DNA from: an uncultured Prevotellaceae bacterium
GTDB taxonomy: Bacteria; Bacteroidota; Bacteroidia; Bacteroidales; Bacteroidaceae
Direction: 5' to 3'
Assembly: GCA_900318775.1 (NCBI GenBank)
Contig: ONLY01000002.1
Span: 62,001-126,000, forward strand
DNA: 64,000 nt
Positions 7,312-50,201 of the stretch are shown here, piece by piece. The first letter of the stretch is position 1. Each line of letters starts with the position of its first letter. Both the position numbers and the translations under genes were made by a program. Below the pieces are notes generated by a model, which saw only the letters and a list, made by a program, of their open reading frames with translations, did not search any database and was not told where the DNA came from.

Positions 7312-9939
7312 ATGAGAAGATTGAAAATCACCATATTCACCTTTATCCTGCTGTTGTGTGCGTGTGTGGCCGTAGAGGCACAAGTGCAGACAAAGCCCTC
7401 TGTTGTGTATGGAAAGACACAGAAGTATGAGATTGGAGGCATCGAGGTTGAGGGTGTGAAGAACTACGAAGACTATATCCTTATTGGCTTATCAGGACTC
7501 ACCGTCGGCGAAACTGTTTCGCTGCCTGGCGAGGAAATCACCGAGGCAATCAAGCGTTACTGGAAGCACGGACTCTTCTCGTCGGTCAAAATTGAGGCCG
7601 ACAGCATCGTGGATGAGAAGGTGTATCTGAAGATTACACTGGCGATGCGCCCTCGTGTGTCTCAACTGAACATCAATGGTGTGAAGAAGTCGGAACATGA
7701 CGATTTGCAAGAGCGCATCGGATTGGTGAAGGGCAATCAGCTTACGCCTAATATGGTGGACAAGGCAAAACTCGTTATCAAGCGCTACTTCGATGAAAAG
7801 GGCTTTAAGAATGCCGTTGTGGATATCGTGCAGCGCGATGACCCGAACCAGGCCGGCCAGCTGATTGTGGATGTCAACATCGACAAGAAGGAGAAGGTGA
7901 AGGTGAACAAAATCTTCATCACTGGTAACACGCATATTGCCACAAAGAAGTTCCATGGCGGTTTCTTCTCAGGCGGTCTGCTGAAGAAGACCAACGAGAA
8001 GGGCTTCAAGAGTTTCTTCAAGACCAAGAAGTTTGTGGAGGAGAAATACGAGGAGGATAAAGACCGCGTGGTGGAGAAGTACAATGAGCTAGGCTATCGT
8101 GATGCCTACATAGATGCAGACAGCGTGGTGGACATCGGCAATAACCTCGTGAATGTTTATCTCCACATAGACGAGGGCAACAAGTACTATGTCCGCGACA
8201 TAAGGTGGGTGGGTAACACCATCTATAATACCAGCATTCTGGAAAATGTATTGGACATGAAGCGAGGCGATGTTTATAACAAGAAGCACATCCAGAAGAA
8301 GCTTCACGAGGACGACCTGGCTGTGAGCAACCTCTATTACAACGAGGGCTACGTGTTCAACCAGGTGCAGGAAGTGGAAGCGGATGTGGATGGCGATTCC
8401 ATCGATTTGGAGATCCGTATTTATGAAGGTACTCAGGCCGCCATCAATAAAATCAAAATTTACGGAAACACCCGCGTGTATGAGGAGGTGATTCGTCGAG
8501 AGCTTTTGCTCAAGCCAGGCGACTTGTTCAGCATGGATGCCTATAAGATGACGTATCAGGAGATTGCTCAGATGGGACACTTCGACCCTGAACAGATAGA
8601 CTTTAAGCCAGTGCCCGATCAGATTAATGGTACTGTTGACCTGAACCTCGGTCTTGTGCCAAAGGCAAGTGACCAGCTTGAGTTCTCGTTGGGTTGGGGT
8701 ATGACAGGCGTGATTGGTAAAGTGGGTTTGAAGTTCACGAACTTCTCCGTGCGCAATCTCTTCGGAAAGAACCGCGTTCATCGTGGCATTCTGCCCCAAG
8801 GTGATGCGCAGGAGCTGGAGTTGAGCGCTTCTACGAATGGTTCTTACTATCAGCAGTACAGTATCTCGTTCCTCGATCCATGGTTTGGACGGAAGCGCCC
8901 TAACCAGTTCTCTGTCAGCGCATTCTTCTCTCGTCAGACTGACATCAGCAGCAACTACTACAACAGCAGCTACTATAACAATTACTACTCAATGCTGTAT
9001 GGTTATGGTAACTACAACAGCAGTTACTATAACAACTACTCTAACTACTACGACCCCGACAAGTACATTGAACTGTTTGGCTTGAATATAGGCTTTGGTA
9101 AGCGTCTCACATGGCCTGACAACAACTTCCGTTTCCAGGCATCACTGGGCTACACACGCTACATGATGAAGGACTGGGAGTACTTCATTGTGCAGAACGG
9201 TAACTGCAACGACATCAATCTGACCTTGTCGCTTTCGCGTACATCTATTGATAACGGCATGTTCCCACGCCGTGGCTCACAGTTCTCCGCTTCAGTATCA
9301 GTTACGCCGCCTTATTCAAAGTTTGATGGCCTTGACTACAAAAACATGGCTACCAGCTACTATGATGCCGACTATCAGCGAGACATGAGCCGCAAGTACA
9401 GGTGGATTGAGTATCACAAGTGGAAGTTCAATTCCCGCATGTACACTCCGCTGGGTAGTGCCCGCAAGTGCTTTGTGCTGATGACCCGCTTCGACTTCGG
9501 CTTCTTGGGCAACTACAACAAGTATAAGAAGTCGCCGTTCTCTACTTTCTATGTGGGTGGTGATGGAATGTCGGGCTACTCTTCTAGCTACTACTCCGAG
9601 ACCATTGGTCTCCGTGGATATGACAACGGCGCATTGACTCAGGGCTACAATTATGGCTATGCCTATGACCGCATGACGGTTGAGCTTCGTTACCCACTCA
9701 TGCTCCAGGGTGCCACCAATATCTATGCGTTGGCCTTTATGGAAGGCGGTAATGCATGGACTGAGACCAAAAAGTTTAATCCCTTCGATATGAAACGCTC
9801 TGCAGGTATCGGTGTCCGACTCTTCCTCCCGATGGTAGGTCTGATGGGTATCGACTGGGCTTATGGCTTCGACAACATCAATGGCTCTAAGAGCTACAGT
9901 GGAAGTCAGTTCCACTTTGTGCTGGGTCAAGAGTTCTAA
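7312..9939 (+). CDS. bamA: Outer-membrane assembly factor BamA (Omp85)
   Basis: An 875-residue Omp85 protein. A signal peptide (MRRLKITIFT..., cut near VEA-Q) is followed by about five POTRA domains (residues 40-455) and a C-terminal barrel (about 460-875). The conserved loop-6 motif appears as GLRGYDNG near residue 766, and the protein ends in Phe (LGQEF), as barrel proteins usually do. It inserts outer-membrane barrels. An odd low-complexity tract of Tyr, Asn and Ser occupies about residues 544-582 in the barrel part, probably an extracellular loop. Neighbours are uppS upstream and OmpH/Skp-like chaperones downstream. Confidence 0.95.
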   Translation: MRRLKITIFTFILLLCACVAVEAQVQTKPSVVYGKTQKYEIGGIEVEGVKNYEDYILIGLSGLTVGETVSLPGEEITEAIKRYWKHGLFSSVKIEADSIVDEKVYLKITLAMRPRVSQLNINGVKKSEHDDLQERIGLVKGNQLTPNMVDKAKLVIKRYFDEKGFKNAVVDIVQRDDPNQAGQLIVDVNIDKKEKVKVNKIFITGNTHIATKKFHGGFFSGGLLKKTNEKGFKSFFKTKKFVEEKYEEDKDRVVEKYNELGYRDAYIDADSVVDIGNNLVNVYLHIDEGNKYYVRDIRWVGNTIYNTSILENVLDMKRGDVYNKKHIQKKLHEDDLAVSNLYYNEGYVFNQVQEVEADVDGDSIDLEIRIYEGTQAAINKIKIYGNTRVYEEVIRRELLLKPGDLFSMDAYKMTYQEIAQMGHFDPEQIDFKPVPDQINGTVDLNLGLVPKASDQLEFSLGWGMTGVIGKVGLKFTNFSVRNLFGKNRVHRGILPQGDAQELELSASTNGSYYQQYSISFLDPWFGRKRPNQFSVSAFFSRQTDISSNYYNSSYYNNYYSMLYGYGNYNSSYYNNYSNYYDPDKYIELFGLNIGFGKRLTWPDNNFRFQASLGYTRYMMKDWEYFIVQNGNCNDINLTLSLSRTSIDNGMFPRRGSQFSASVSVTPPYSKFDGLDYKNMATSYYDADYQRDMSRKYRWIEYHKWKFNSRMYTPLGSARKCFVLMTRFDFGFLGNYNKYKKSPFSTFYVGGDGMSGYSSSYYSETIGLRGYDNGALTQGYNYGYAYDRMTVELRYPLMLQGATNIYALAFMEGGNAWTETKKFNPFDMKRSAGIGVRLFLPMVGLMGIDWAYGFDNINGSKSYSGSQFHFVLGQEF

Positions 9940-27719: not shown

Positions 27720-28670
27720 ATGGAACTGATGACACGCATAGACATTCCAGTTTCGGAGTGGAAGATAAAGGCTGGCGCCAAGGTGTTGCTGGTGGGCTCG
27801 TGCTTTGCTGATGAGATAGGAGAGAAGATGAAGCGAGGAGGTTTTGAGGCGATGGTGAACCCATTTGGCACGCTGTACAATCCGGCCAGCATTGCCGCCA
27901 GTTTGCTGAGGAGCATCAGCGAGAAAGAAGTGGAGCTGCCTCGAGTGGAGCAAAGTGGCGCTTCCTGCACCTCTGAACCGATGTCGTCGACGTCGGTCGG
28001 TCGATGTCGACGAGGTCGGTCAACCGATGTCGACGACGTCGTTTTTGAGGATGCGAGTGGCGTGTGGCATTCGTGGATGCACCACAGCAGTTTTTCCTCG
28101 CCCGATGTGGCCACGCTGGTGGAGCGTATCAATAGTGCCACCCATCGTGTGGCAGACTTCCTTCGCCAGGCGGATGTGCTGATTGTCACGCTGGGCACAG
28201 CCATCATCTACCGCATGAAGGAGAGTGGCATGCTGGTGGCTAACTGCCATAAACAGCCCGACAGTCTCTTTGTGAGGGAGCGGATGAACACTTACGACAT
28301 CGTTGACCAGTGGCAGATGCTTTTACAGCTGCTGGAGAGCGTGAATCCCAAGCTCAAGGTCATCTTCACCGTGAGCCCTATCCGCCACAAGCGTGATGGC
28401 TATCATGTGAACCAGCTTTCAAAGGGCGTCTTGCTGCAAGCCGTGGATGAGATGGGAGTGGAGTATTTCCCCTCCTACGAAATCATGATGGACGAGCTGC
28501 GTGACTACCGCTTCTATGCCGATGACATGATTCATCCTTCCGAAAAGGCGGTGGAGTACATTTGGCGACGGTTCCAGGATACCTATATGGACAGTAAGAC
28601 CAAAGATGCGGTGGCGAAGGCCACAAAGGAGTGGACACGCCAGCAGCATAGGCAAATAGTTGACAGTTAA
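27720..28670 (+). CDS. GSCFA domain protein with an inserted palindromic element
   Basis: A 316-residue protein with the family-naming motif GSCFADEIG (residues 27-35), NPFGTLYNP (about 48-56), LIVTLGTA and the late DDMIHPSE segment, typical of the GSCFA family (SGNH-hydrolase-like, no known substrate). Between residues 80 and 110 an Arg/Ser/Asp-rich stretch interrupts the usual domain and coincides with a 92-bp palindromic repeat (27959-28050) that is 80% identical to an intergenic copy at 46482-46573. The insertion keeps the frame, so the gene is likely intact. An alternative start is ATG 27729. The stop lies in a 7-nt-period repeat. The next gene, murF-alr, starts 14 nt on. Confidence 0.85.
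   Translation: MELMTRIDIPVSEWKIKAGAKVLLVGSCFADEIGEKMKRGGFEAMVNPFGTLYNPASIAASLLRSISEKEVELPRVEQSGASCTSEPMSSTSVGRCRRGRSTDVDDVVFEDASGVWHSWMHHSSFSSPDVATLVERINSATHRVADFLRQADVLIVTLGTAIIYRMKESGMLVANCHKQPDSLFVRERMNTYDIVDQWQMLLQLLESVNPKLKVIFTVSPIRHKRDGYHVNQLSKGVLLQAVDEMGVEYFPSYEIMMDELRDYRFYADDMIHPSEKAVEYIWRRFQDTYMDSKTKDAVAKATKEWTRQQHRQIVDS
27959..28050 (+). repeat. 92-bp palindromic element, copy A (inside the GSCFA gene)
   Basis: 74 of 92 positions match the copy at 46482-46573 with no gaps; most differences are transitions. The core is three tandem imperfect palindromes of about 21 nt around ACCGAYRTCG and CGAYRTCGGT, bounded by CCTCTRAAC and its near-complement TTTTGAGG. Confidence 0.9.
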
Positions 28671-41466: not shown

Positions 41467-44400
41467 TTATTTGAGACGCTGACCAGCAATGTTAAACAGT
41501 TCGTTGTTCTTGAAGATAACGAAGGTCTTGCCCTTCAGGAACTTGCCATTAGCCTTCACAGGAGCATTCTCTTCAATACCGTCGATTTCAACAGGAGTAG
41601 CCTCCTTGCTGCTCTCAGTACCGTAGTACCAGAGGCGGTAGTTGTCGGCCTTGAAGAAGGTCTCGTTTGGATTAGCAGTTTCGTTACCAACCAATTCAGT
41701 AGAAGTTGTAATAGTCACTTCGGTGTCTTCGTCGAGGATGAAGATAAATTCTGCATTTGTGGCCTTGCCCTTCTCGTTCTGGTTGACGAAAGTAGTCAAG
41801 TCGTCATTGATACCGAAGTTCAAGATGTGGCTTGGGAATGTAGCGAGAGCGGCCTCCAGTTTGTATGTACCAGCAGGCAGGATGCCGATGTTCTGTGACA
41901 ACCAGAGCTTGCCACCCTCCACTGCGCCGTTAGCCCATGTGTTGAATACGTATGTACCTTCATTCAAGTCGATGGTGTAGGTTGCATTAGAGTTCTCATA
42001 AACCTTAGTGTCATTACCAGAGTTGTAAGTCCAACCAGTCAGGTCACCAGTCTCGAAGCTTGGGTTAGTGATACGCTTAGTGAAATCAACAGGTTCAGTG
42101 TCAGAAGCGCCAGCATAGTCAGGAGTGTTGAGCTGGTCAATCAGCTTCTTGATATCTGCAATAGCAGCATTTACTTCTTCAACGCTAAGTGCTCTGTTGA
42201 CAATGTTGTCTTCATTTGCGTCTCTATAGTCAGTTGCAGCATCGATGGCAGTGCTGTTGTCTGAATCATCAGAAGCATCGGACAATGCGCTCAGTTGGGT
42301 GTCAACTTCAGTGTAAGCGGCCACAGATTTCTCTGCGTAAACGATAGCATCCTCAATTGCCTTCAGGAGAGCTTCGCCTGCACCTTCGGCATCACCGAGT
42401 TCATCAGCATTCTTCTTCAATGTCTCATACCCGTCAGTAACATCCGTACCAACGTATCCTTCGTTCTCATCAATGTAAGTCTTCAACTCACCCAGCTTCT
42501 GGTTGATAGCAATCAGATAAGCGTTGTTGCCAGAGCCGAGGTATTTCAGCTGGAAGTTGTCGAAGATAACCCAGTTATGGTCGTTTGCGCACTTCACACC
42601 TACAGTCACGTCAGCAGTCTCAGTCAGAGAGATGTTGAGTGTAGTGGTGTAGTCTGGATATTCGTTGCCTTCAGTTGTGTGGTTGAAGTGGTAGTTCGCA
42701 CCAGTCATGCTGTTTGGAACAAACCCGCCATCAATCTGAGAATCCTTTTGCCAGCCACCATTGTCATACAGTGATGTTGCAGTTGGATATGCATTAATCA
42801 AAGGAAGAAGAGAAGTCTGCTCCTCCTCGTTGATGATAGCGTAGAGAGCGCCTTCGTTCTTAGAACCGTCGTCACAGCGGGTGAAGCCTTGGCAAGTGAA
42901 CTGATACAGGCCTGCAGGCATGTTGTACACTGTCTGAGACATTGTGAAGATGTTGTGAAAGCGTTCAGCGTTACCTGATGCCAGAACGTTCTCATCGTCA
43001 CCAAGTGTGTTGTCTTTATCAACACCACCCCATACAGGTGAAACACCAGTAGTTTCCCAGCCAGAGAAGTCCTTGTCGAAGTTAGGGTTCTTAATCATGA
43101 AGGTGATGTCGTCGCCAGGCTCCAAGTATTCAGATACATAGTCATTGATGGTCTTCGTGAGCAAAGCAGGAAGAACTTCGATTTCCGCAATGGTGTATGT
43201 GCCGTCGGTATAGGCATCGCTCCAGTCGCTCAGGAAGTCGCCGAATGCTTCAGCGATGCCGCTGAACTTTGTGCCGTCGAATTCCTCAATTCTCTCATTT
43301 GCTTCATTGCGCAGCGCATCGAAATCCTCGTATGCTTTGATAGACTTCTCCAGCTGTGCCACAGCAGCTTCCAATGCAGCCTTAGCTGCAATGTAGTCGC
43401 CACCGTTTTCAGAAATGGAAGCAGCGCTGCTATATGCGTCGGAGTATCCAGTTTTGTCGCCAGTATATGCAACGTAATCATCCAAATCCTCTGGGTCATA
43501 CTTCTCAGCAATTAACGCCATGTAGTCGTCCAGCAGCACCTTGTCTGGGTCGTCAGAAACCGGACCGTAGTAGTAGAGCTTCAGGTTGTCCATAGCAATC
43601 CAGTTAGCTGGAGCCTTAGCCTCTGCACTGCCGATGACGCGCAGGCCGAGTGTCATAGCGCCACCAGTGTGGATGAAGGTGAAGTCGAAGTGCTCTGGTA
43701 TGCCGTCGCCTGTTGCCATAGGAGTGAAATATTCCTTGCCGTCAGCTGATGCCTTGGCGAAGAGCTGCACGTCATCTGGAAGTGCATTGCCCCACTGGTA
43801 GCGGGCAATCACGTCAACCGCCAGCATGTACTTACCAGCAGGAAGGCTTGGCACTGTCTGTGTGATAGAACCGTCGCCCAGATAGTTCGGAGCGCTATTT
43901 TCCTTCCATGCTTCGATAAACTTCTCAATTTTTACCTCACCATTGGTGTATGGCTGATTAGCCTGATAGCCAATGTTGGTGGCTTCCTTGGTCTTGGCTG
44001 TCCAAGTGATGTCCCAGCCATTAGCGTTGCCATCGCTGAAGTCATTGTTGGTGAACACGCCAGATACATCGTTCGCCTCACCTTCAACAATATCCTCGAA
44101 GTATTCCTTGATTTCCACCCAGCGGCCCTTGTCATAAGCAGAGTCAGCTGCCTTGTTCAGCTCTTCTGTAGTGCTCTCTGTGTTGTTGTACACAGCGTAC
44201 TCGTCAGCAAGATCAGAAGCTTCAATGCCATTGTTGAGTGCATATTCAATCTTCTCTTTCAGGTTCACAGCTGCTGCATAGCGCTGTTGTGCAGGAACAT
44301 ACACATTGTTGTATTCTTCCACAGACACAAAACGCCACTCGTCCCAGAATTCTGCGCCATCAGGGAATGCCTTCTCTGCATCCTGAGCTTCGCCGTCAAT

Positions 44401-44994
44401 CATTGGAACGTAGATGAAGTCGGGGTCGTAGAAGTAGCAGCGAGTGTTGGGAGTCTCTCCAACGCAAGTTGATGCCACACCCCATGTGCCTGGCTCTGGA
44501 ATGCCAGGATTGAGTTGCTGTTCAGTGTCTGGATGTTTCGAGGTGTCCTCACCCACGCCAGTGTTGGTGATTTTGTAGCTGCCGTTTTCTTGCTTGGTGA
44601 ACACCCACTGGTCTGTGCCAGGGTAGCTGTCATTGCCTGTTGCATTGCCAGCGTCCACCCACTGTGCGTTCCAAGAATTGGCTGCAACATACAACCATTT
44701 GTTCTTGTTTGTGTACGCAGCAGGGAAGCAGCTCAAGTTGTATTTGCCTTCTGCCAAAGCTTTGATACGGACAGAGTCGCCCTTCTCTGCGACTGATGCG
44801 CGAGTGTTCCAGTCGTTGTGACCAGCGAGGAAGCCTTTCGCGCCTACATTGTAGAGAAACTGTGTGGTCTCGCCATCATCCGCCATATCGACGAAGTTGG
44901 TCACCACTGGCTTTTCCCACGTTGCCGTGAAACTCTGTGCAAACGAGACTGTGCTCATGAGCGCAGAAGCCAAGAAAAGTAGAGTTTTCTTCAT
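41467..44994 (-). CDS. Giant secreted multi-domain protein, left paralogue
   Basis: A 1175-residue exported protein of unknown function. Signal peptide MKKTLLFLASALMSTVSFA; an N-terminal beta domain (about 20-230); then three jelly-roll, carbohydrate-binding-like modules (about 330-480, 650-860 and 1000-1130) recognisable by repeats of the type NGWDITW, QTVPSLPAGKYML, and ANWIAMDNLKLYYYG. They are separated by acidic three-helix linkers (FIVAR-like). The C-terminus NELFNIAGQRLK is a motif often seen at the ends of Prevotella exported proteins; it is not a type A sorting domain. It is a full-length paralogue of the protein at 46632 and divergent from it, sharing a 45-bp leader identical in inverted orientation. 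Glycan binding is inferred only. Confidence 0.8.
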   Translation of the reverse strand: MKKTLLFLASALMSTVSFAQSFTATWEKPVVTNFVDMADDGETTQFLYNVGAKGFLAGHNDWNTRASVAEKGDSVRIKALAEGKYNLSCFPAAYTNKNKWLYVAANSWNAQWVDAGNATGNDSYPGTDQWVFTKQENGSYKITNTGVGEDTSKHPDTEQQLNPGIPEPGTWGVASTCVGETPNTRCYFYDPDFIYVPMIDGEAQDAEKAFPDGAEFWDEWRFVSVEEYNNVYVPAQQRYAAAVNLKEKIEYALNNGIEASDLADEYAVYNNTESTTEELNKAADSAYDKGRWVEIKEYFEDIVEGEANDVSGVFTNNDFSDGNANGWDITWTAKTKEATNIGYQANQPYTNGEVKIEKFIEAWKENSAPNYLGDGSITQTVPSLPAGKYMLAVDVIARYQWGNALPDDVQLFAKASADGKEYFTPMATGDGIPEHFDFTFIHTGGAMTLGLRVIGSAEAKAPANWIAMDNLKLYYYGPVSDDPDKVLLDDYMALIAEKYDPEDLDDYVAYTGDKTGYSDAYSSAASISENGGDYIAAKAALEAAVAQLEKSIKAYEDFDALRNEANERIEEFDGTKFSGIAEAFGDFLSDWSDAYTDGTYTIAEIEVLPALLTKTINDYVSEYLEPGDDITFMIKNPNFDKDFSGWETTGVSPVWGGVDKDNTLGDDENVLASGNAERFHNIFTMSQTVYNMPAGLYQFTCQGFTRCDDGSKNEGALYAIINEEEQTSLLPLINAYPTATSLYDNGGWQKDSQIDGGFVPNSMTGANYHFNHTTEGNEYPDYTTTLNISLTETADVTVGVKCANDHNWVIFDNFQLKYLGSGNNAYLIAINQKLGELKTYIDENEGYVGTDVTDGYETLKKNADELGDAEGAGEALLKAIEDAIVYAEKSVAAYTEVDTQLSALSDASDDSDNSTAIDAATDYRDANEDNIVNRALSVEEVNAAIADIKKLIDQLNTPDYAGASDTEPVDFTKRITNPSFETGDLTGWTYNSGNDTKVYENSNATYTIDLNEGTYVFNTWANGAVEGGKLWLSQNIGILPAGTYKLEAALATFPSHILNFGINDDLTTFVNQNEKGKATNAEFIFILDEDTEVTITTSTELVGNETANPNETFFKADNYRLWYYGTESSKEATPVEIDGIEENAPVKANGKFLKGKTFVIFKNNELFNIAGQRLK

Positions 44995-45030
44995 AAAAGT
45001 TAGTAATTAAGAAATTAGTTAAACAATAAC
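44986..45030 (-). repeat. 45-bp inverted repeat, left arm
   Basis: Identical over 45 of 45 bases, in inverted orientation, to 46596-46640. It covers the leader and the first three codons of the left paralogue. The outer end holds GTTA-TTGTT-TAAC, a small dyad that could be a recombination core. Confidence 0.95.
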
Positions 45031-45352
45031 ATTATTAATATATATTAGAATATTATATTATTGCGATTAGTTCCCGTTATTAATTAGCCTTTTAGGTCGT
45101 ATCTATAAAGATACACTCTTCGCACGTCCACATACCGCTTGTTGCGGATTGCAGAAAGAGATTTTTCGGCGGTAAAGATATATGAATAAAAGGAAATGAC
45201 CAAGTGTTTTTCCATAAAAACGAAGTGAAAAGATAAAAAAAGTGAGAATTGACAAGATTATCCGCTGAGTTTGAAAACACTAAGTGCTTGTTTTGGAAAA
45301 AGAATATAGCTTGTCGGTAATGATTGGAGCAAGAGGGAAGAATACCCCTTTT
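45031..45352. other. AT-rich intergenic region between the left paralogue and the recombinase gene
   Basis: No protein or RNA gene recognised. It must contain the promoter of the left paralogue: a near match TATCTTTA lies on the minus strand around 45103-45110. The stretch 45031-45060 is almost pure A/T. A weak stem around AACACTAAGTGCTT (about 45278-45291) may end the recombinase transcript. Confidence 0.5.
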
Positions 45353-46456
45353 CTACCGCAACACTCGTTGCAAGTCATTGAGAATGGTACACAGTTTCAC
45401 CTCGGCATACATCTGTGTGGTGCGCACACTGCTATGTCCCAGCAATGCTTGCACCGTTGTGATGGGCACTCCCTTGCTCAACAGCTGAGTGGCGAAGGTA
45501 TGTCTGGCTGTGTGGAAGGTAATCCGCTTCTTAATGCCAGCCTCTTCTGCAATCCGTCTCAATTGCTTGTTGGTCTGCGTGTTGCAGGGAATGGGAGGAT
45601 GTGGCCCCATATCGCCCAGCAGTTGGGTGAGGGGTGTGATGGGCAATGATACCTTCTGCTTTGTCTTTTGCATCCTGAGTTCTATCCATAATACATCGCC
45701 TTTTTTGCAGAAATGCTCCTTCCCAAGACGCGTATAGTCAGAATAGCGCAACCCTGTATGGCAACAGAAAAGGAAGGCATCTCTCACGTGGGGGAAGATA
45801 GTTACCTTGGCCATGCGCTCCATTTCCTCTTTCGATAGTGTGGCGTGTTCCCGTTTTTCCATATGGCGCCTGAAGCATTTCAATGTCACAATGCCAGAAT
45901 CCACGAGATGGAGTCTGACGGCTTCGCCCAGAATGCTCCTGAGGTGGTGGAAGTGCTTAGCAATTGTATTAGGATTGTTTCCCCGAGTGTGCAGATAGCG
46001 TTCAAAATCAGCAAGCACTGGCTCGTCTATTTCGTGCAGTGACAGGGGACGAAAGCTATGTAATGCACGTGCTGTGCTGAGCAGGTTGCACTTAGTGCTT
46101 TGTGCATGGTTGGATGTTGACAGCATGTCCTTTACAAAATCGATGAACTTTGGAGATTCCGACTTCCACCTGTATCCATTACGGAGATGCTGCAATGTAG
46201 GTTCCATGCCGCTTCGCCATGCCTCCACCTCTATCCGTTGCAGTTTCATGAGCTGTTCCGCCAGCATGCCGTTCAGCATCATGGCATCGTGGCGGTTCAC
46301 TACCTCGCATTGTCTCCATTCTGACGGTTTGATATAAATGCCCGTACTGAAATAACACTTCTTTCCGTCTTGATAGGCTTCTATTTGCACCAAAGCCTCT
46401 CCCATCGCGTTGAGCGACTTTTTCCGGTTGTGAATGAAACGGTACTTGATTTTCAT
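45353..46456 (-). CDS. Tyrosine recombinase (site-specific integrase/invertase)
   Basis: A 367-residue Bacteroidales-type tyrosine recombinase. The N-terminal arm-binding domain (about 1-95) and SAM-like core-binding domain (about 100-190) precede the catalytic domain with R237 (TGLRYSD), Lys in KTKQKVSLP (264-268), H315-x-x-R318 (FHTARHTF), H341 (LLGHSS) and nucleophile Y350 (TTQMYAEV): all six catalytic positions are present. There are no phage or conjugation genes nearby, so it is a lone recombinase, like the invertases that flip promoters in Bacteroides. It lies between divergent paralogues whose starts form a 45-bp inverted repeat. Its -7 box is 7 nt from the ATG. Confidence 0.92.
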
Positions 46457-46463
46457 TTTTTAC

Positions 46464-46471
46464 CAAAGGTA
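46464..46471 (-). promoter_or_regulatory. -7 promoter box of the recombinase gene
   Basis: TACCTTTG on the minus strand, 7 nt from the ATG at 46456, so the transcript would be almost leaderless. The upstream promoter region lies in the palindromic element at 46482-46573. Confidence 0.6.
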
Positions 46472-46481
46472 CGACTTTTCC

Positions 46482-46573
46482 CGCTTCCTGCACCTCTAAA
46501 CCGACATCGACGACATCGGTCGACCGACATCGTCGACATCGGTTCACCGACATCGTCGACGTCGGTTTTGAGG
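46482..46573 (+). repeat. 92-bp palindromic element, copy B (upstream of the recombinase)
   Basis: Same length and orientation as copy A at 27959-28050, 80% identical. Three tandem imperfect palindromes (ACCGACATCG and CGACATCGGT types). It lies between the divergent recombinase and right-paralogue genes. Confidence 0.9.
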
Positions 46574-46595
46574 GGGGAAAGTTAAATTGTCATTA

Positions 46596-46640
46596 GTTAT
46601 TGTTTAACTAATTTCTTAATTACTAACTTTTATGAAGAAA
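46596..46640 (+). repeat. 45-bp inverted repeat, right arm
   Basis: Perfect inverted match to 44986-45030. Here the dyad at its outer end is longer: TTAGTTA-TTGTT-TAACTAA (46593-46611), two 7-bp arms around a 5-nt spacer, resembling a tyrosine-recombinase core site. Confidence 0.95.
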
Positions 46641-49600
46641 GCTTTACTTTTTCTCTCTTCCATGTTGGTAGGTGCAGCAGCATTTGCTCAGGAGTTCACG
46701 GCAGTATGGCCCAGCATGCCAGTGCCCGAGTTCACTACATTTGCTGTAGAGCAGGAATGCTACCTTTGGAATGTGGGTGCTGGCGGCTTCTACATCAACC
46801 ACCAGGGCCCCAGCGCAGCGCCTTATTGGGGATCACGCGCTACAGTGAATAACACTGTGGGTACCAAAGTGAAATTTACCCAAACGAATCCTGGAGACAT
46901 TAACGAGACGAGCTCATTTGAAGCAGAGCCCAATGCCTATCTCTTTGTCAGTTATGTGACGTCGCAAAAGGAGAATAAGTGCACCTTCTCTGACGCTTGG
47001 GACGGCGTTTGGACCGATAACAACACGAACACAAATCGCTATTTTGACATCGTGCCTAGTGGCAACTACATCAAGATTCAGCCTAATGTGGAGTTGCAGA
47101 ACGGAAAGACGGACGGAATGTTTCTGGGTGTTCGTGGTGAAGATCCTAACATGCTGATCTATCTGTATGATAAGACCCCTGGCCGCATCAGCGAAACAGA
47201 GCCATTCTATGCCGAGTGGGCAGCTGTGAGCGCAGATGCTTATGATACATGGTACGCTGCTCGTAATGGTGAAGAAAGCAAGAAAGTGTATGCAAACTAT
47301 GTGGCTTCAGAAAACCTGAAGGCCGAAATCCTCACTGCTCAGGAGAAGGGGTTCACAGCTGCCAGCCTTGCTGACTACTATGCTGTGTACAACAATCTGG
47401 AAAGCACTGTTGAAGAAATGAATGCAGCTAAGCAGGCTGTGTGGGAAAAATGGCGCTGGGAGGAAATCAAAGACCTCTTTGACGAAGGCAACATCACCGT
47501 GGGTGAGGCAAATGATGTTTCAGATGCTTTCATCAACAACGACTTCGATGAGGGAGATGAGACCAATGGGGCCGTTAAGAATACAAGAGGCTGGGACATC
47601 ACCTTCCAGTCTGGTGTGAATGCAGCAAACATCGGTTACAACTACAATATAGGTACAGTGGAGATTACCCACCCTGTGACGGGCGAGAAAGTGCTGGGTT
47701 TGATTAACACCTATGAGCTGCCTGAAGGCGGCGAGGAAACAGCCTTCCTCTCTAAGTTCATCGAGGCATGGAGAGATGCTAAGGATCCTCTTGGCGAAGG
47801 CTCTATCACACAGACAATCCCTAACTTGCCAAAGGGTAAGTATGTTTTGGGTGTGGATGCCAACGCTTGTAACCAGAGCAACGCCAACGATGTGGATAAT
47901 GTGCAGCTCTTTGCCAGAGCATCCCTCACAGGTCAAGAGTATTTCACAACTGTCAGCACGCCCGATGAGAATAACCGTCCAAGGCACTTCGAGTTCAACT
48001 TCATCCACGCTGGTGGCTCCATGACTTTGGGCTTCCGTGTCACCGACAAGGAGAAAGCCACTAATCCTGCTAACTGGATTGCTATGGATAACTTGAAACT
48101 CTACTTCTATGGCGACGAGGGAATGGATCCTGACCAGTATCAGCTGGGTAATCTTATTGAGGACCTGAAGGCGAAGCAGGACCCTGACGATCTGGAGTCT
48201 GTAGCGGCATACACAGGCGCCAAGACTGGCTACGAAACGGCTATGGGAACAGCAGAAGATGTCTATGAGAACGGTGGCGATTTCGTGCAGGCACAGACAG
48301 ATCTGCAGGCGGCATACGATGCACTGGTTGCTTCGATTGCAGACTATAAGAACTTTGCTTCCTTCCTGGAGCAGGCCGATGAGCGCGTGCTTGACTTCGA
48401 AGGCACACCATTCGAGACATCTGTAGGCGAACCGCTTTCCGATCAAGTGGGCCTGTGGCACGACGCATACGACGATGAGAAATATACGAAGGAAACAATT
48501 GATGGTCTTGCAAGTGCTCTTGCAAAGGCTGTGGCAGACCTCTTCCCAACAACATTGAATAAGGGTGATGACCTGACTGCATTTATCGCCAACGCTGGCT
48601 TTGACCGTGGCTTCTACGGCTGGACATCTGTTGATGCTACACCTGCATGGGGAGGCACCATCATGGAGAAAGACGGAGAAGGCAACGTGACCTACAAGAC
48701 GAGCAACACAGTAGAAGGCTGCGAGCCTATCGAGTCTGGTTGCGCAGAGGTGTTCCAGAAAGCGTTCTCTATGTCTCAAACATACAAGGGACTGCCTGCT
48801 GGTGTATATCAGCTCAGAGCTCAGATTTTCGAGCGCAACGACAACAACAAGACAGACGGAGAAACCTTCCTCTATGCAATGGTAGGTGACGAGGAACAGA
48901 AGCAGGTCGCTCCATTCATTGATAAATATGCAACAGACGAGAGACTGTTCGTTTTGAACGAAGAAGCTTGGGGAACAGATATCGAGACCACAGGAGGCAG
49001 CGGCAAGTATATTCCAAGAAACATGGAGGGTGCCAACTACCACTTCGCTCACACAACCGAAGGCAATGAACTGCCAGACTACACGGTGACTCTGAACATT
49101 GTGCTTGACAAGGCAAGCGACGTGGAGTTCGGTGTGAAGAACACTTCGGGTGGCGACTGGGTCATTTTCGACAATTTCCAGCTGATTTACTTGGGTGAAG
49201 ACCTCAGCGTATATCTGATTCCTGTTAACGAAAAGTTGACCGAGCTGTCTCAGTTCGTCGAGGAGAATGAGGATAACGTTGGCACAGATGTGAAAGATGA
49301 CCTTGGAGTACTGACTGATGGTGTTGCTGATCTCCAAACCAAAGAAGATTGCGCGGCATACATCAAGACTATCGAAGATGCGATTGCATATGCCAAGAAC
49401 TCTGTGAAGTTCTATGCAGAGGCTGATGATCTCGTAAGCCAGTTGGAGACCGCCAAGGATGAGGTGGACGCTAACCCAACTGCTGCCGATGATACAAAAT
49501 CTTATCTGGAAGAAGTATCTGACCCCATCAGCAACAGAGAGCTGACTGTGGCAGAACTGGAGGAGGTCATCGCAAAGTGCAAGGTGCTCCTTACAGCCCT

Positions 49601-50201
49601 CTTGCTCCCTGAAAACTTCAACTCAGCCACTGACGAGAACGGCATTGACATCACGAAGGTGATTGTTAACCCAAGCTTCGAGGAGAAGATGACTGGTTGG
49701 ACAAACTCCGGCACCATCGCTGCATGGGAACAGACGAATAAGCTGTTTGATAATCAGCAGGGTGATATCTACTGTGAGTGCTATCACAAGGATGGCTCCA
49801 TCGATGTCAACCAGACGATTCCTGCTCTGCCTGCAGGTACTTACGAGCTGAATGCAGCTATCTCTTCACAGGCGACAGACTGCAAGCTCTATGCAAACGA
49901 CGCTGCTTATGATGTTCCTGCTAATGCTTCGGGTCGTTACTCTGTATTCTTTGCTCTTGAAAAGGTAAGCGATGTGACTTTTGGCGTCAGCTGGACGGAT
50001 AAGGGTGGCTTCTGGAATGCGCTGGATGACTTCAAACTTACATACTACGGTACGGAGAGCCAGAAAGTGGAAGTGGAAGAGATTAGCGTTCCTGCTGCCG
50101 ACGAAAACGCTCCTCTGTACAACCTCGCTGGCCAGCGTGTGAACAAGAACTACAAGGGCTTCGTGGTGAAGAAGGGACAGACTTTCTACAACAACAAGTA
50201 A
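46632..50201 (+). CDS. Giant secreted multi-domain protein, right paralogue
   Basis: A 1189-residue exported protein, similar along its whole length to the left paralogue at 41467. Signal peptide MKKALLFLSSMLVGAAAFA; N-terminal beta domain (about 20-210; YLWNVGAGGFYINHQGPSA); three jelly-roll modules (about 300-500, 650-860, 1010-1140) with QTIPNLPKGKYVLG and NWIAMDNLKLYFYG type signatures; helical acidic linkers between them; C-terminus NLAGQRVNKNYKGFVVKKGQ, a common Prevotella end motif that differs from the left paralogue's end. Function unknown; surface glycan binding is inferred from fold type. No clear -7 box is visible upstream, so its transcription in this orientation is uncertain. 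Confidence 0.8.
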   Translation: MKKALLFLSSMLVGAAAFAQEFTAVWPSMPVPEFTTFAVEQECYLWNVGAGGFYINHQGPSAAPYWGSRATVNNTVGTKVKFTQTNPGDINETSSFEAEPNAYLFVSYVTSQKENKCTFSDAWDGVWTDNNTNTNRYFDIVPSGNYIKIQPNVELQNGKTDGMFLGVRGEDPNMLIYLYDKTPGRISETEPFYAEWAAVSADAYDTWYAARNGEESKKVYANYVASENLKAEILTAQEKGFTAASLADYYAVYNNLESTVEEMNAAKQAVWEKWRWEEIKDLFDEGNITVGEANDVSDAFINNDFDEGDETNGAVKNTRGWDITFQSGVNAANIGYNYNIGTVEITHPVTGEKVLGLINTYELPEGGEETAFLSKFIEAWRDAKDPLGEGSITQTIPNLPKGKYVLGVDANACNQSNANDVDNVQLFARASLTGQEYFTTVSTPDENNRPRHFEFNFIHAGGSMTLGFRVTDKEKATNPANWIAMDNLKLYFYGDEGMDPDQYQLGNLIEDLKAKQDPDDLESVAAYTGAKTGYETAMGTAEDVYENGGDFVQAQTDLQAAYDALVASIADYKNFASFLEQADERVLDFEGTPFETSVGEPLSDQVGLWHDAYDDEKYTKETIDGLASALAKAVADLFPTTLNKGDDLTAFIANAGFDRGFYGWTSVDATPAWGGTIMEKDGEGNVTYKTSNTVEGCEPIESGCAEVFQKAFSMSQTYKGLPAGVYQLRAQIFERNDNNKTDGETFLYAMVGDEEQKQVAPFIDKYATDERLFVLNEEAWGTDIETTGGSGKYIPRNMEGANYHFAHTTEGNELPDYTVTLNIVLDKASDVEFGVKNTSGGDWVIFDNFQLIYLGEDLSVYLIPVNEKLTELSQFVEENEDNVGTDVKDDLGVLTDGVADLQTKEDCAAYIKTIEDAIAYAKNSVKFYAEADDLVSQLETAKDEVDANPTAADDTKSYLEEVSDPISNRELTVAELEEVIAKCKVLLTALLLPENFNSATDENGIDITKVIVNPSFEEKMTGWTNSGTIAAWEQTNKLFDNQQGDIYCECYHKDGSIDVNQTIPALPAGTYELNAAISSQATDCKLYANDAAYDVPANASGRYSVFFALEKVSDVTFGVSWTDKGGFWNALDDFKLTYYGTESQKVEVEEISVPAADENAPLYNLAGQRVNKNYKGFVVKKGQTFYNNK

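Follow-up and report, generated by a model that had tools for sequence, protein, structure and literature searches.

In the window analysed here, a 64,000-nucleotide stretch of DNA from an uncultured Prevotellaceae bacterium (GCA_900318775.1, contig ONLY01000002.1, positions 62,001 to 126,000; contig C25 of the genome labelled G000), a tyrosine recombinase gene lies between two divergent paralogues, here called L (left) and R (right), whose starts form an inverted repeat. This locus is probably a promoter-flip switch of the SusC-invertase kind that serves giant secreted proteins resembling carbohydrate-binding modules (CBMs), with the recombination core placed in the 5' leader. The recombinase would exchange strands at two AGTT-N7-AACT cores, placed in inverted orientation in the 5' leaders of L and R, and so invert a segment of roughly 1.6 kb containing its own gene. 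Such a flip would swap the sequences upstream of the two genes and leave the proteins untouched, since the start codon of each gene comes after the core. The sequence-based support for this switch consists of the repeat, the enzyme, the core, the co-variation of the core between genomes, the family context of the enzyme and a decayed relative. The features that carry the argument are the following.

41467..44994, minus strand: left paralogue L, 1175 aa, with a signal-peptide-like start and a beta N-terminal region, followed by three units that each pair a helical bundle with a CBM-like jelly roll
44986..45030, no strand: 45-bp inverted repeat, left copy, spanning the leader and first codons of L, by sequence comparison
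45017-45031, minus strand: left core, reading TGTT-ATTGTTT-AACT toward L, at 23-37 nt upstream of the start codon
45353..46456, minus strand: tyrosine recombinase of 367 aa with its six catalytic residues, by domain search and residue alignment
46595-46609, plus strand: right core, reading AGTT-ATTGTTT-AACT toward R, at 23-37 nt upstream of the start codon
46596..46640, no strand: 45-bp inverted repeat, right copy, spanning the leader and first codons of R, by sequence comparison
46632..50201, plus strand: right paralogue R (1189 aa; 43% identity with L), which the sister genome G034 lacks

Repeat, core and enzyme in the window

The preliminary description of this DNA reported a perfect 45-bp inverted repeat over the starts of the two divergent paralogues, and the repeat is exact, with positions 44986-45030 matching the reverse complement of 46596-46640 at 45/45 bases. 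A 41-base piece of it occurs in only two places in its own genome at up to 3 mismatches (0 in the reversed control) and a 25-base leader piece in the same two places only, while a 20-base piece has one extra place, C5:13737, with 3 mismatches. Since the 41- and 25-base pieces are confined to the repeat copies, the possibility raised earlier, that the same leader stands before many unrelated genes, is rejected for this genome. The recombinase, described as complete and as the only gene between the paralogues, is indeed full length, with Arm-DNA-bind_5, SAM_5 and Phage_integrase domains and all six catalytic residues in place (R237, K264, H315, R318, H341 and Y350, that is R-K-H-R-H-Y), and no other gene was recognised in the segment between the cores.

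A dyad likened to a recombinase core, TTAGTTA-TTGTT-TAACTAA, is real at the right repeat copy, but is better described as a 15-nt AGTT-N7-AACT motif at the recombinase-side ends of the repeat. This motif, at the recombinase-side end of each copy, is likely to be the site of the enzyme. The two cores in the window are inverted and have identical spacers, with a single arm mismatch in the left copy. The further remark that the leader is better conserved than the genes stands in part: L and R agree at only 30/51 bases over codons 4-20, but TTGTTTAACTAATC... also precedes homologous genes in four other genomes (G029, G035, G017 and G014), in whose loci no recombinase was found.

The history of the paralogues is not that of their leaders. 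In the paralogue tree L pairs with its counterpart in G034, whereas R falls with G044/G008 (98/99) on a long branch, and yet the leaders of L and R are identical over the repeat. Both also carry a T at a position that is C in G034 and in eight other relatives whose motif can be recognised (the paralogue R1 of genome G015 lacks the motif), which fits homogenisation of the two leaders, weakly, as a single site. The identical leaders, the tree position of R and the shared T would all be expected of a gene conversion hot spot, in which the repeat mainly homogenises leaders rather than switching genes. We consider this very improbable, as gene conversion leaves the spacer-matched cores and the family context described below unexplained, draws on one site only, and describes a homogenisation that is compatible with inversion. 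Under the proposed switch, it is quite possible, if a little short of probable, that the conserved 5' leader itself became the recombination site, so that roughly 40 nt would serve as both expression leader and core, and repeated flips would keep the leaders identical while the proteins drift.

Relatives in the genus and in the bacterial family

The closest comparison is with G015, a genome of the same genus. A scan of named genome contigs, from which near records were possibly omitted, identified one relative only, JAFUYM010000009.1, a 'Bacteroidaceae bacterium' from roe-deer rumen that is taken as the G015 contig. Over 367 residues, the G015 recombinase has 66% identity to that of the window, and it sits in the same place beside PrmC, PorZ and an L paralogue. 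Its cores read AGTT-ATCGTTC-AACT in both copies, inside a 21-bp exact inverted pair (AGTTATCGTTCAACTAATCTT) around the recombinase, and the 18-nt core pattern has four other places in that genome at up to 3 mismatches, each with 3. The spacer therefore varies between the window and G015 and is identical within each genome, and a spacer altered alike in both G015 copies is what a site-specific recombinase would need. By synteny, paralogues flank both sides in G015, with L on contig C80 and two more on contig C77 beside an HI0933 gene; C77 starts 153 bp ahead of a plus-strand paralogue, followed by the second paralogue and then the HI0933 gene. The right core is on C80, outside the assembled leader of the C77 paralogue, and a gap separates the two contigs.

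Two further genomes appear to hold remains of the same system. In the sister genome G034, L is 91% identical and its upstream region is kept, the recombinase is cut down to about residues 300-367, and both cores are retained with one arm mismatch each, the right core running into the last codons of R and the region downstream. Most simply, the ancestor of G034 would have had R and lost it through a deletion starting in the core, and we read the locus as a decayed version of the switch. In G006, AGTT-GGCGTTC-AACT is found 94 nt before the paralogue, no recombinase was found in the locus, and the core region is homologous to the right end of G015 (score 95 against a best of 38 in 500 shuffles), making this core a likely fossil of the switch. 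In G008 (L072, G008:C11, 7152-9501), the gap between paralogue and HI0933 gene is about 2.3 kb with extra sequence, against about 0.5 kb in G044.

Across the upstream regions of homologous genes, a core with 0 or 1 mismatch is present in 6/16 (L and R of the window, G034 L, G015 L, G006a and G015 R2) and absent in 10/16; the match at G015 R2, with one arm mismatch and an unrelated spacer, is probably due to chance. This distribution bears on the view that the two genes simply share a strongly selected leader, next to a recombinase that is inactive or has nothing to do with it. Such a view would account for TTGTTTAACTAATC... ahead of genes at loci with no detected recombinase, but none of the four leaders concerned (G029, G035, G017 and G014) contains an AGTT-N7-AACT core. 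Cores instead track the enzyme or its remnant, together with the likely fossil in G006 and the one chance-like match. The co-variation of the spacers and the position of the G015 right core, outside any assembled gene leader, also argue against it, and it is distinctly improbable.

To place the enzyme in a wider context, 399 genomes of the same bacterial family were searched with the recombinase alignment, of which 74 matched at E <= 1e-40; 37 matches were examined, comprising 28 made into loci (L090-L117) and 9 hand-picked from the remainder. A core pair was counted where inverted cores flank the gene, have the same spacer and show no more than one arm mismatch apiece. Such pairs occur in 23/37 relatives, or in 26/40 loci when the window, G015 and G034 are included, compared with 1/4000 shuffled flanks; the motif was derived partly from the same loci, and it is present in 7/20 of those with cores not inspected before that derivation. 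An inverted repeat of at least 16 bp within 1.5 kb was found in 16/28 loci. In 15 of these 16, a complete SusC-type start lies on one side and a headless SusC-type gene begins at the core on the other, and in 13/15 the exact repeat starts at the core and extends toward the genes, as it does in the window. The recombinases of these 15 loci are 35-39% identical to the window enzyme, with full-length homology, and Pfam searches on flanking proteins from 5 loci identified Plug in 7/7 and CarbopepD_reg_2 in the 4 with complete starts.

A layout closer to that of the window is found in G347, where two divergent SusC-type genes, both complete, carry the core in their leaders. The sixteenth locus, in its congener G183, has the left half of the same layout, its contig ending in the first codons of the right gene, and all three complete genes of G347 and G183 carry Plug and CarbopepD_reg_2. 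Judged by sequence, the G347 layout is that of the window with other cargo. Two contigs, L149 (G183:C23) and L069 (G015:C80), stop at their right ends in the right core or repeat or about 200 nt past it; ends of this kind might be expected from an assembler if both orientations coexisted, which is no proof that they do. Elsewhere, at L151 (G111:C23), a 170-bp exact inverted repeat (7481-7650 and 8956-9125) tightly brackets a recombinase relative, with cores AGTT-GCGCCCC-AACT within.

The same comparisons bear on the possibility that the locus is the remnant of a mobile element, with the recombinase as integrase and the repeats as attachment sites. Arm-binding, SAM-like and catalytic domains are common to element integrases. 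However, an integrase of this type has direct attachment repeats around carried genes, whereas the cores in the window are inverted and enclose nothing else that was recognised. Moreover, many relatives of the enzyme lie between SusC-type genes, and two species, with 66% identity between their enzymes, have the locus at the same place. The mobile-element reading is hardly credible, and was rejected on account of the inverted repeats, the lack of cargo and the conserved place.

Promoters, orientation and the weight against a switch

Candidate promoters were sought with a scan that combined a -33 element TTTG with a -7 element TAnnTTTG and was scored against shuffles. The -7 consensus is the one given in PMC4747536. 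The candidates in the window are as follows.

45106-45113, minus strand: second candidate -7 element at the L-side end, by promoter scan
45173..45180, minus strand: candidate -7 element TATCTTTA at the L-side end, 5/6 consensus positions, weak (shuffle p 0.7)
46464..46471, minus strand: candidate -7 element TACCTTTG for a promoter of the recombinase gene itself (shuffle p 0.04)

The clearest outward promoter is at the L end of G015, a full match TTTG-N20-TACCTTTG located 161 nt from the left core (p 0.005), with nothing as good at the right end (p 0.28). Full matches also occur about 140 nt before the start codon in G029 and G017, which have no switch (p 0.015 each); G044 and G008 have a full -7 element only, and the scan gave no promoter match in G035, G014 or G006a. 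The distance from the L-end promoter candidate to the start codon is about 190-200 nt in both the window and G015. On the R side of the window the scan returned no promoter candidate (p 0.97), and G034 resembles the window (p 0.64 and 0.95). The proposed switch would thus have an outward promoter at the L-side end of the segment, as seen in G015 and probably here, which makes L most likely ON and R OFF in this assembly; inversion would turn L OFF and R ON, and we infer both the occurrence of inversion and the alternating expression. As a one-ended promoter was found in three loci only (G015, G347 and G183), the assignment of the ON gene in the window is just the better guess. The earlier suggestion that one promoter could drive either gene is accordingly plausible, with the one-ended promoter of G015 in its favour and the weak window candidate on the other side.

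Several results weigh against this interpretation. Shuffled sequence does as well as the window candidate TATCTTTA, which lies 150 nt from the L core (p 0.7). G347 and G183 each have a promoter at a single end, on the recombinase's 5' side (p 0.015 and 0.01), opposite to G015, and in nine other loci scanned no end reached p < 0.05 (best 0.085). In 15/15 SusC-type loci the complete gene is the one next to the 5' end of the recombinase, and by analogy the ON gene would be R rather than L. The identity of the leaders is in part a genus trait. The core pair is absent in 14/37 relatives, a set which includes cut flanks, L157 and L158 from the window's own genus, and L131, with a 110-bp repeat beyond the scanned range. 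The same set includes the six top-scoring relatives outside the genus, L125-L129 (G318, G267, G278, G255 and G164) and L095 (G084); these enzymes may act on remote sites.

Finally, the preliminary description had looked to mixed orientation among related genomes for support, and no flipped allele was found: relative to L, the segment is oriented alike in the window, G034 and G015 (3/3). The inversion of 45.0-46.6 kb that it proposed is favoured by the co-variation of the cores, the family context and the decayed locus of G034, and disfavoured by this uniformity. The single orientation, together with the decay of G034 within the lineage, would suit a once-active switch that is now fixed, with intact machinery, rare or silent inversion, and a repeat kept by selection on the leader and gene conversion. 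We think this unlikely, given a full-length recombinase with its six catalytic residues, identical spacers, and two complete genes whose frames are open over 1175 and 1189 aa.

The segment contains one other feature.

46493..46573, no strand: hairpin element built from three palindromes of 23 bp each (ACCGACATCGTCGACATCGGT type), also at 27977-28043

The RNA fold of 46485-46595 has an energy of -52.5 kcal/mol (z -6.8). The hairpin unit has 52 matches in its own genome at up to 3 mismatches over both strands (some double-counted, the unit being palindromic), against 1 in the reversed control. It is present at the G034 locus and absent at this place in G015, and is therefore not needed for the switch. 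Dispersed through the genome in this way, the hairpin repeats were rejected as a part of the switch; they are a repeat of this lineage resembling repetitive extragenic palindromic (REP) elements.

The paralogues and comparison with known systems

R has a signal-peptide-like start, as does L. The predicted structure of L (mean predicted local distance difference test score, pLDDT, 74; predicted template modelling score, pTM, 0.42) has a beta N-terminal part followed by three helical bundle plus jelly roll units. A profile built from 11 homologues hits the galactan-binding module TmCBM61 (CBM61, 2xom) at E 8.9e-9 and, weakly, the chain of a porphyran-binding module at E 0.017, and a fold search with single jelly rolls recovers both modules (template modelling score, TM, to target 0.65-0.75). 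The top whole-chain matches from Foldseek, with a TM of about 0.11 and a root-mean-square deviation above 20 A, are meaningless as global matches. Family-model searches found no TonB-receptor domain in L or R. From these matches we infer a role in glycan binding after secretion. The C-termini of both proteins (for example LYNLAGQRV...) are taken by us to resemble tails of the type IX secretion system (T9SS); no T9SS family model matched either protein, and secretion by this route is not claimed. No publication linking T9SS with phase variation and an invertible promoter was found, which does not in itself establish that none is in print.

If the proposed switch operates, a strain would consist of cells showing one or the other of two giant secreted proteins, which might affect glycan binding and contact with phages or the host. 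The recombinase family is now placed next to genes other than those for nutrient receptors, with G034 as a natural decayed control, and the core AGTT-N7-AACT, with its free but matched spacer, is testable for this family in many genomes of the bacterial family. If the leader also serves as the core, SusC-type switching would extend to alternative secreted proteins with multiple CBM-like units.

The nearest known systems are the invertases of SusC loci, in which the core lies in coding sequence and one complete gene is paired with one headless gene. In the window the core is in the 5' leader and both genes are complete, so that no headless silent gene is needed. What is new relative to these invertases is the cargo, together with the leader-borne core that the window has in common with G347. 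In Campylobacter fetus, the sapA promoter segment lies between divergent homologues for surface proteins with conserved 5' ends, inverts in a RecA-dependent manner and contains transport genes. The window shares the divergent homologues, but has a dedicated tyrosine recombinase instead. The Hin system of Salmonella likewise has an invertible fragment with the recombinase inside and alternative surface proteins, although the alternative genes do not form a divergent pair around the segment. Hin, the enzyme of this flagellar switch (PMC11868660), is a serine recombinase, whereas the window encodes a tyrosine recombinase.

Within the Bacteroides, inversion by the Tsr0667 invertase of B. fragilis controls alternative surface proteins in the SusC/SusD shufflons (Nakayama-Imaohji 2009, as summarised in PMC4747536). 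These shufflons resemble the window in combining an invertase with alternative surface proteins, and relatives of the window enzyme share its core between divergent SusC-type genes. However, the targets in the window are not SusC/SusD, and Tsr0667 enters this comparison by description alone. In the intergenic shufflon of region EE in B. fragilis, inversion puts alternatives under one promoter, and several gene pairs lie downstream of an invertible promoter according to PMC5729914; the window has two genes, and its promoter is presumed to lie inside the flipping segment. In B. thetaiotaomicron, the surface-layer protein BT1927 is under promoter inversion that switches one gene ON or OFF (PMC12548429), whereas the switch proposed for the window would choose between two alternative genes.
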